Source: Plantactinospora mayteni
GTDB lineage: Bacteria; Actinomycetota; Actinomycetes; Mycobacteriales; Micromonosporaceae
Length of the DNA stretch: 64,000 bases
Assembly (NCBI RefSeq): GCF_016862935.1
Contig: NZ_BONX01000035.1
Location: 1-64,000 of the forward strand
Direction of reading: 5' to 3'
Under the pieces are notes generated by a model. The model saw only the letters and a list, made by a program, of their open reading frames with translations. It was not told the origin of the DNA and did not search any database. Of the stretch, positions 59,900 to 62,570 are shown piece after piece; position 1 is the stretch's first letter; every line of letters begins with the position of its first letter. The position numbers and the translations under genes were made by a program.

Positions 59900-60498
59900 T
59901 CGCGAGTGTCCGGGGTGTGGTCGCCGGGCTGTCCCCGGACGGCGCGGTGATCGAGGTCGGCGGGGTGGGGCTGGCGGTGCAGTGCGCGCCGGGCACCCTG
60001 GCCGGGCTGCGGGTCGGCTCGCCCGCCCGGCTCGCCACCAGCCTGGTGGTCCGGGAGGACTCGCTGACCCTCTACGGCTTTGCCGACGACGACGAGAAGC
60101 AGCTCTTCGAGTTGCTCCAGACCGCCAGCGGGGTCGGCCCCCGGCTGGCCCAGGCGGTGCTCGCCGTGCACGCCCCCGACGTGGTCCGCAAGGCGGTCGC
60201 GAACGCCGACACCGGCACCCTGACCCGGGTCCCCGGGATCGGCAAGAAGGGGGCCGAGCGGCTGGTGCTGGAGTTGCGCGACCGGATCGGACCGGTCCCG
60301 GTCGGCGCCGACGGTGCGGCGGGGGTCACCGCCGGGGCCTGGCCGGAGCAGGTCCGGCAGGCGCTGGTCGGGCTCGGCTGGACGGCGTCCCAGGCGGACC
60401 AGGCGGTGGCGGCGGTCGCGGAGACCGTCGACGGTGAGGTCCCGCCGGTGCCCACGCTGCTGAAGCAGGCGATCCGGTTGCTGGGCAGGACCCGGTGA
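59896..60498 (+). CDS. ruvA: Holliday junction branch migration protein RuvA
   Basis: 200 aa. Domain I ([20 protein letters not shown]), helix-hairpin-helix motifs in [11 protein letters not shown] and [18 protein letters not shown], and the C-terminal RuvB-binding three-helix domain ([20 protein letters not shown]). It loads RuvB on junctions. Overlaps ruvC by ATGA and ruvB by GTGA, so the three are translationally coupled. Confidence 0.97.
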
Positions 60499-62570
60499 CC
60501 GACCCCGAAGGGCTCGTCTCGGCGTACGCGAGCGACGCGGAGCGGGACGCCGAGGTCACCGTACGCCCGAAGCGGCTCGCCGACTTCATCGCCCAGCACC
60601 GGGTACGCGACCAGCTCGACCTGCTGCTGCGCGCCGCGACGGGCCGGGGCACCCCACCGGACCACATTCTGCTCTCCGGCCCTCCTGGCCTGGGCAAGCC
60701 GGTCTCGGTCGAGGCTCTGGTTCTGCTCGCCGACGGCACCCGGCGCCGGCTGGGCGACATCGTGCCGGGGGACCGCGTGATCACCCGCACCGGGCGCCCC
60801 GCGCTGGTCGAGGCCGTGCACGAGCAGGGTGAACTCGACTGCGTGCGGATCCGGACAACGAGCGGCCGGGAGGTGGTGGCGGCGCCGGACCACCCGTTCT
60901 GGACCACGAACGGATGGATGAAGGCCGGCGACCTGACCGACCGGGACGTGTTGGCGAACGTGTTGCGCCCCGAGTTGACGGCCGGCGGTGCCGAGTCGAC
61001 CGACGAGTTCCGGCTCGCCGGCTATCTGATCGGCGACGGCTGCACGTCCAACCAGGTCACCTTCACCGGCAGCGACCCGGACGTGCTCGCCGACTTCCGG
61101 TCGGTGTGCGACCGGCTCGGTCATCCGCACCGGACCCGTCCGAACAGCGCCCGCAGCTCCGTCGTCCGGATATCAGGGCTGCGTGGCTGGCTCGCCGAGC
61201 ACGGCCTGCTGGACAAGACGGCCTGGCACAAGCGGGTCCCGCCGTTCGTCTACCGGGGCGACGAGTGGCAGGTGGGTGCCTTCCTCGGGGCGTACTTCGC
61301 CTGCGATGGATCGGTGAGCCGACGCGGGCGCGACCGGTACGACGTGGTGGTCGAGTTCCACAGCGTCTCGCGCGGCCTGCTCCAGGACGTGCAGCACCTG
61401 CTGCTTCGGCTCGGCGTCCAGTCCCGGCTGAAGCTGAAACGGGGCCGCCACCAGGGGAGGCCGCACGAGTCCTGGCGGTTGAGCGTCACCAGCCAGGACG
61501 ATGTCGCGCGCTTCGTCGAGCGGATCACCGTGCTCGGCGAGCGCGGCCGGCGGCTGGCGGAGTGGGCGCCCCGTCGGGACCGGTTCGAGGAGAGTCTCGC
61601 CGCCGACCGGGTCGGCTCGGTCGAGCCGGCCGGGCTGTGTCCGTGCCGGTGCCTCACCGTCGCCGACGACCACACCTTCACCGTCAACGACCTGGTCGTG
61701 CACAACACCACCCTGGCGAACATCGTCGCCGCCGAGCTGGGTGCGGGGATCCGGGTGACCAGCGGCCCGGCGATCGAACGCTCCGGCGATCTGGCCGCGA
61801 TCCTGACCAGCCTTGCCGAGGGCGACGTGCTCTTCATCGACGAGATCCACCGGATCGCCAAGCCGGCCGAGGAGCTGCTCTACAGCGCGATGGAGGACTT
61901 CCGGGTCGACGTGGTGGTCGGCAAGGGGCCGGGCGCGACCGCGATCCCGCTGGACGTCGAGCCGTTCACCCTGGTCGGCGCGACCACCCGGTCGGGGCTG
62001 CTGACCGGTCCGATGCGGGACCGGTTCGGCTTCGTCGCGCACCTCGACTTCTACTCCCCGGACGAGCTGGACGTGCTGATCCAGCGGTCGGCGCGGATCC
62101 TGGGGGTGCCGAGCACCGAGGGCGGTTCGGCGGAGATCGCCGGCCGGTCCCGGGGTACGCCCCGGATCGCCAACCGGCTGCTCCGCCGGGTACGCGACTT
62201 CGCCGAGGTCCGGGCGGACGGGACGGTGACCCGGGAGACCGCCCAGGCGGCGCTGCGGGTCTACGACGTGGACGAACTGGGGCTGGACCGGCTGGACCGG
62301 GCGGTGCTGACCGCGCTGGTCGACTCGTTCCGGGGCGGCCCGGTGGGCCTGTCGACCCTGGCGGTGGCGGTGGGGGAGCAGCCGGACACCGTCGAGGAGG
62401 TCTGCGAGCCCTTCCTGGTCCGGGCCGGTCTGCTGGCCCGTACCCCCAGGGGGCGGGTGGCCACCGAGGCCGGCTGGCGGCATTTGGGGCGCACACCGCC
62501 AAATGGTACATTTGGTGCGAGCGGGCCCGCGGTGCCCGACCTCTTCTCCGCGGGGTCCCAGGAGGTGTGA
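60495..62570 (+). CDS. ruvB: RuvB Holliday junction helicase interrupted by an intein
   Basis: A 691-aa precursor from GTG 60495. Residues 1-68 and 405-691 form a complete 355-aa RuvB; residues 69-404 are an intein. Splicing would restore GPPGLGKTTLANIV, the Walker A loop. Walker B is VLFIDEIHR, sensor I is GATTRSGLL, and the arginine-finger region PMRDRFGF and [16 protein letters not shown] are intact. RuvB drives branch migration with RuvA. Without splicing the ATP site would be broken, so intein activity is expected to matter for recombination repair. The C-terminal winged helix is present, with a longer tail that ends in Ser/Gly/Glu. Confidence 0.95.
60699..61706 (+). mobile_element. Intein with LAGLIDADG endonuclease in RuvB, starting with Pro
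   Basis: A 336-residue insertion between Lys68 of the P-loop and the following Thr. Block A is [13 protein letters not shown] (1-13), so residue 1 is Pro, not Cys/Ser/Thr. Block B (56-69) has Gly56, Ala62 in place of Thr, His65 and HPFWT with Trp68. The endonuclease motifs are LAGYLIGDG (106-114) and [10 protein letters not shown] (195-204), each with a catalytic Asp. Block F has Cys318 ([11 protein letters not shown]), with Cys314 and Cys316 before it. Block G ends VVHN with +1 Thr. Pro1, block F Cys and +1 Thr match class 3 inteins; Trp is one position off and the residue before the penultimate His is Val, not Thr. Confidence 0.95.

Follow-up and report, generated by a model that had tools for sequence, protein, structure and literature searches.

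The ruvB gene of Plantactinospora mayteni is interrupted by an intein that begins with proline, a residue unable to initiate standard intein splicing, and the locus raises the question of whether, and by what route, the precursor is spliced. Within the window (the whole 64,000-nt stretch of DNA analysed; all features given here lie on its + strand), the ruvB precursor of 691 aa (60495..62570) starts at a GTG codon that overlaps the end of ruvA at its stop, is matched by RuvB profile models in two stretches; no other gene in the genome scores above the cut-off of the RuvB family. ORF translations between 59200 and 63999 suggest the order ruvC-ruvA-ruvB, followed by yajC- and secD-like genes. 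The N-extein codons (60495-60698) and the C-extein (61707-62567) flank an intein of 336 aa (60699..61706), which runs from Pro1 to Asn336 and splits the RuvB P-loop between Lys and Thr (GLGK / P...HN / TTLAN), precisely where the initial annotation had placed it; spliced RuvB is expected to be 355 aa long (691-336).

Three of the seven genomes sampled from the genus have an intein at this site, and the other four congeners retain the empty site as an uninterrupted GLGKTTLAN. The insertion is in frame at a conserved site, contains blocks A, B, F and G and a terminal His-Asn, and has uninterrupted orthologues, identifying it as an intein although some intein profiles scored below their cut-offs: Pfam Intein_splicing (E 7e-7) and NCBIfam intein_Nterm both fell short, NCBIfam intein_Cterm was barely above its cut-off and LAGLIDADG_3 was well above. 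The homing endonuclease carries LAGLIDADG motif 1 at 61014..61043, and the LAGLIDADG_3 Pfam stretch (61269..61526) includes motif 2. A PDB sequence search with the intein returned weak intein matches only (best E 1.6e-4). RuvB has already been tabulated as an intein host (PMC5874633; here and below, PMC numbers refer to the excerpts of those papers available to us).

The proline is not a sequencing error. Its codon (CCG, 60699..60701, block A position 1) is one of 47 Pro codons at residue 1 in the 47 RuvB-intein loci read (CCG 38, CCC 6, CCT 3), loci that come from two overlapping source sets and represent fewer distinct genomes. No Cys1 relative, which together with a sequencing error would have counted against the initial annotation, was seen at the RuvB site in the genus genomes, the genome contig scan or a sample of 300 genomes of the family Micromonosporaceae. 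In the latter, 26/300 genomes carry the RuvB intein with Pro1, 24 as 336-aa matches and two as 221-aa forms (L311, L312) that are in frame and keep the splicing blocks while the endonuclease is eroded. Patterns from the N-terminal half, run on the genome contig collection, found 23 loci, of which 21 are RuvB genes of Micromonosporaceae and two encode terminases (one from an Acidobacteria assembly, one from a Hyphomonadaceae assembly); all 23 have Cys-x-Cys in block F, which the patterns did not touch. When 394 genomes of the class were searched with a profile, five candidates being scored in each, the intein of the window (444 bits) was the one strong member and the next match reached 136; this sample missed carriers found among the 300 family genomes. 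In the Plantactinospora alkalitolerans intein (L003 / L055), FAWNG replaces FACDG as the second LAGLIDADG motif, and its endonuclease is probably inactive, judging from this change.

Block B (60864..60917) contains Ala62 at B:7, His65 at B:10 (codon 60891-60893), Phe67 at B:12 and Trp68 at B:13. Block F contains Cys318 at F:4 (61650..61652), the proposed initiating nucleophile, and block G (61686..61706, NDLVVHN) has Val at G:5, the penultimate His and the terminal Asn; Thr+1 (61707..61709), the proposed second nucleophile, is the Thr of the RuvB P-loop. The initial annotation had read most of this correctly: Pro at residue 1, Cys318 at F:4, Thr at +1, Ala in block B and a Trp-Cys-Thr (WCT) triplet left incomplete by Trp68 at B:13 and Val at G:5. 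Absent from it was a second block F cysteine, Cys316 at F:2 (61644..61646). An AlphaFold model (32 sequences; pLDDT 91.9, pTM 0.91, outer extein residues <50) predicts that Cys316 and Cys318 share one strand (310-331 in model numbering). The suggestion that the HPFWTTNGW motif lies closer to bacterial Hint domains did not hold, as HPF[LW]T..GW occurs also in Cys1 inteins and the PT-HINT profile matched the intein below its cut-off (E 0.07 and 0.24); the profile did better in some viral family members (E 2e-5 in L127).

These residues can be set against the described classes. Pro1 departs from class 1, which has Cys, Ser or Thr at residue 1. As in class 3, residue 1 is none of these and F:4 is Cys; Phe67 in place of Trp B:12, Val in place of Thr G:5 and a position outside the class 3 clade (see below) depart from it. 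A residue-1 nucleophile is absent, as it is in class 2; the family has in addition a conserved block F Cys.

A viral contig yielded a full-length homologue with 40% identity, and later scans and phage searches yielded many more members, including the annotated phiCbK-like TerL inteins. We defined the family as 99 non-identical inteins, obtained from 116 rows over the profile filter by removing 17 by hand as class 1 or class 3. The scores back this cut: no member longer than 200 aa falls below 258 bits and no removed row exceeds 166, with four short members at 141-168. The 99 contain near-identical pairs and exclude the later RuvB loci L290-L312. Residue 1 is Pro in 92 (Asp 4, Glu 2, Gln 1) and Cys, Ser or Thr in none; residue -1 is Lys in 90 (Gly 7, Met 1, Ser 1), and residue +1 is Ser in 62, Thr in 36 and Cys in one (Ser/Thr 98/99). 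Cys F:4 is found in 99/99, a figure partly true by construction because one search pattern contained that Cys, and F:2 is Cys in 94, the exceptions being the four members with Asp1, which have Thr, and a single member with Pro1, which has Met. His B:10 is present in all 99, B:12 is Phe in 92 (Tyr 5, Val 1, Leu 1; Trp 0/99) and B:7 is Ala in 86 (Glu 8, His 5). G:5 is Val in 98 and Ile in one (Thr 0/99), G:6 is His in 88 (Lys 9, Ser 1, Arg 1) and G:7 is Asn in all 99. The mixture of class 1 and class 3 features reported in the initial annotation is real, but it is not a peculiarity of this intein. Rather, it belongs to a family of 99 non-identical inteins, mostly from phage TerL, whose signature is Pro1, Ala B:7 and a Cys-x-Cys block F replacing the Trp B:12/Thr G:5 pair. 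The four Asp1 members (L092, L128, L132 and L137) read HAK/D at the N-terminal junction, with Thr at F:2, His at B:7 and, of the two block F cysteines, only that at F:4.

RuvB is the host in 23 of the 99 and other proteins in 76. Among the latter, 75 C-exteins were long enough for scanning, and 72 of these match the PHROG terminase large subunit family. L120 and L129 lie in DnaB-type helicase or primase-helicase proteins, the C-extein of L151 gave no host match in the scan, and in L224, whose C-extein is absent from the 75-row scan, Terminase_6N precedes the intein. Pfam returned no host family for the C-extein of L053 and few for the others; PHROGs did recognise the hosts. Most of the inteins are inserted after a P-loop-like Lys, five lie at PPG/S and a few lie further on in TerL. 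The clade is phage-linked, and most of its hosts are P-loop proteins (TerL, DnaB-type helicases and RuvB). Seven of the 75 C-exteins (L084 and L085 among them) match Pfam Intein_splicing, so that in several terminases the family intein is followed by another one further downstream.

Two trees, with family rows hand-picked for spread, place the family relative to class 1 and class 3. The splicing-domain tree (122 columns; 53/99 family members, 19 class 3 references and 15 class 1 inteins) left out six columns (residue 1, B:7, B:12, F:2, F:4 and G:5) and the class 1 rows L268, L051 and L258, in which block B was misplaced. The full-length tree (348 columns; 43/99 family members and 18 class 3) retained the diagnostic columns and omitted L258 (by hand) and L255, L260 and the class 3 row L275 (too short). 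In the former, the 19 class 3 references, 18 of which have Trp B:12, form one clade (100/100) with the family outside it; three Cys1 phage inteins (L256, L098 and L266) were placed inside the family, and a tree with the family held together was equally likely (p 0.52). In the latter, the family forms one clade (100/99) and class 3 another (100/100), with class 1 lineages between them on mostly weak branches (68/78, 86/81; one 95/86). Clustering inside class 3, which the initial annotation had named as grounds for dropping its reading, was ruled out by both trees: the family is outside the known class 3 clade.

A common origin of the family and class 3 is not rejected by the AU test (p 0.53 for the splicing domain and 0.48 for the full length; full-length p 0.28 with six long class 1 rows removed), and we therefore do not claim two origins. 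We entertain, as a tentative and on balance doubtful scenario, that the clade descends from class 1 LAGLIDADG inteins by a line separate from WCT class 3. Block F-initiated splicing would then have been invented twice in nature, and the clade would be a class of its own where the Lys-Pro bond, under strain, and Cys-x-Cys, possibly acting as a relay or redox gate, replace Trp/Thr. Within the class 3 clade, the intein of Escherichia phage EC001 (L094) has Cys at both residue 1 and F:4 and is inserted after GK, and that of Vibrio phage 12VC501 TerL (L287) combines Ala1, Cys F:4 and THN with Asn at B:12.

The presence of Cys F:4 is coupled to the absence of Cys1. A scan independent of block F used the block B pattern HPFLT[PTV]xGW and kept the best 80 of 129 loci, of which 62 had both ends read and 53 were non-identical. 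Among these, 50/50 non-identical inteins with Pro, Asp, Glu or Gln at residue 1 carry Cys F:4; the remaining three of the 53 are the class 1 rows L255, L256 and L258 (the profile had misplaced the start of L256 and L258 by one or two residues). From the same best 80 of 129, 8/8 Cys1 inteins with block F read, namely these three and five cut by hand, lack Cys F:4. The count omits L269, which resembles L266 and is also without Cys F:4, and those Cys1 loci whose block F could not be read. Fisher's test gives 5e-10 for the association, with the qualification that the rows are phylogenetically related and not independent. The genome contig scan and one of the searches that enlarged the family were also independent of block F.

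Residue 1 also covaries with B:7, a position that assists the N-terminal junction (PMC7891396): Pro1 pairs with Ala B:7 in 86/92 (Glu 5, His 1), Asp1 with His in 4/4 and Glu1/Gln1 with Glu in 3/3. As the two Asp1 rows of the full-length tree are sisters and its three Glu/Gln1 rows form one clade, this covariation amounts to about two independent events. From these pairings we infer that Pro1 may strain or destabilise the scissile bond, making the B:7 helper unnecessary.

The most probable reading, to which we assign a probability of about 0.78, is that this LAGLIDADG intein is functional and mobile and is spliced out via Cys318 by a class 3 type route. The class 3 route opens with an attack of the F:4 Cys on the N-terminal junction, after which the +1 residue acts and Asn cyclises (PMC5222942). 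Here, Cys318, aided by His65, would attack the Lys(-1)-Pro1 bond and hold the N-extein in thioester linkage to block F; Thr+1 would then take over the N-extein, Asn336 would cyclise, and a shift of the ester to a peptide bond would restore the RuvB P-loop. Any role of Cys316 in this scheme is one that we infer. Mutation of Thr G:5 can have minimal effect in class 3 inteins, and changing Trp B:12 to Ala inactivated three of them (PMC5222942). In the AceL NrdHF intein, Trp is absent and class 3 splicing is proven; its Thr-to-Ala mutant is about tenfold slower, and its block F Cys was modelled 3.0 angstroms from the scissile carbonyl (PMC7891396). Given these precedents (Trp-less AceL NrdHF and the tolerated Thr G:5 mutation), Cys318-initiated splicing is the best reading. 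However, aromatic residues at B:12 abolished activity in AceL NrdHF, and together with the inactive Trp-to-Ala mutants this suggests that Phe B:12 needs some other compensation here.

Like the WCT class 3 inteins (Msm, Mle and Mch DnaB-1, MP-Be DnaB and Bvi IcmO), the family lacks a residue-1 nucleophile, has Cys F:4 and His B:10, has Ser/Thr+1 as a rule and often occupies a P-loop site after GK; unlike them, it is without Trp B:12 and Thr G:5, has Cys F:2 and forms a separate clade. The lack of the Trp/Thr pair and the position outside the WCT clade leave room for a distinct block F-initiated route, as the initial annotation had proposed. The MP-Be DnaB intein also starts with Pro, as is implied by PMC3556154. 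In our alignment the block F spacing of the family is of the class 1 type, and class 3 carries one extra residue, an insert noted also in PMC7891396. The AceL NrdHF split intein (MCT triplet) resembles the RuvB intein in departing from WCT at B:12 and has been shown to use the F:4 Cys, as is proposed for the RuvB intein; it differs in being split, in Ala1 and Met B:12 and in keeping Thr G:5. Class 1 LAGLIDADG inteins (actinobacterial DnaB-2, P1201 TerL and ET08 portal) share the HPF[LW]. block B and the block F spacing, and that of P1201 TerL also follows a P-loop-like Lys (SAK/C); unlike the RuvB intein, they have Cys1 and lack Cys F:4.

Across 24 RuvB loci (23 distinct; 276 pairs), in all of which the splicing motifs are kept, median dN/dS is 0.117 for the N-terminal and 0.122 for the C-terminal splicing part, 0.162 for the endonuclease, and 0.127 (N) and 0.102 (C) for the exteins. 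Purifying selection on the splicing parts and the exteins, and the retention of the splicing blocks in the 221-aa forms, suggest that splicing is required. The initial annotation had also considered an intein that cleaves without ligating, that is, N- or C-terminal cleavage as in bacterial intein-like domains, and the non-canonical active site with Val at G:5 would suit this. We give it hardly any credence: a host severed in its P-loop should be dead, and the intein-bearing gene is the sole RuvB copy over the cut-off; the +1 Ser/Thr and the terminal Asn are kept, both exteins are under purifying selection similar to that on the splicing blocks, and the motifs are intact in the two endonuclease-eroded forms. 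Equally remote is a decaying, inactive intein in a dispensable RuvB, although Arthrobacter provides an example of decay in an intein of the class 3 clade (PMC3196547) and C-extein dN/dS is slightly higher in the three intein-bearing congeners (0.10-0.17) than in the four intein-free ones (0.06-0.09), a weak hint of relaxed selection. The splicing motifs kept in the 24 loci, a splicing-part dN/dS of about 0.12 and the lack of any stop codon inside the 26 RuvB-intein matches from the 300 family genomes argue against decay.

Other routes to a spliced product must also be weighed. Thr+1 could attack the Lys-Pro1 bond directly, with Cys318 merely structural, as in class 2, which is defined by direct +1 attack (PMC5222942) and likewise lacks a residue-1 nucleophile. 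This is very unlikely, since Cys F:4 is invariant and coupled to the absence of Cys1, the +1 residue is Ser or Thr in 98/99, both weaker nucleophiles than Cys, and KlbA genes were, as of 2011, the sole known setting of class 2 (PMC3196547). Somewhat less improbable, though still unlikely, is a relay in which the acyl group is shared between Cys316 and Cys318, or a redox pair of the two that gates RuvB maturation. Cys-x-Cys occurs in 94/99, the two cysteines are two residues apart on one predicted strand, and F:2 is Cys in 0/19 class 3 references. A class 3 DnaB intein can be paused by oxidation via its block F Cys, the partner in Msm DnaBi1 being a second, non-conserved cysteine (PMC6195587). 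However, the F:2 Cys is evidently dispensable in the four Asp1 members (Thr) and in one Pro1 member (Met). 

Parts of this picture are on record. The phiCbK-like TerL inteins of Caulobacter phages, which are family members (Pro1, Cys-x-Cys, AK/P...HN/S), were annotated from sequence in 2012, when the Pro was remarked on and Tori 2010 cited; the excerpt of that account available to us gives neither a class nor a block F analysis (PMC3556154). An operational definition of class 3 (no Cys1 and Cys at C2:4; PMC7891396) would take in the RuvB intein. By that definition 1701 class 3 inteins (no N-end Cys, Cys C2:4) were counted in 2020, of which 4.6% deviate at Thr and 6.1% at Trp (PMC7891396), and members of the Pro1/Cys-x-Cys clade may be among them. 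No description of the clade was found among the literature matches listed, with most subscription journals uncovered. Pro1 in phiCbK TerL and deviants from WCT are therefore already known, and the clade as such appears, from these sources, to be undescribed.

A natural clade with the block F Cys and without Trp and Thr would show which residues of the route are dispensable, and it turns one versus two origins into a testable question. It also offers candidates with Lys-Pro junctions for protein engineering, among them the natural 221-aa forms that keep all four blocks, and places an intein of this kind in RuvB, a motor of bacterial DNA repair, whose maturation, we speculate, could be rendered redox-sensitive by the conserved Cys-x-Cys. 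In the same genus, a single dnaB gene (L271) carries both a WCT class 3 intein, at the P-loop, and a class 1 intein.
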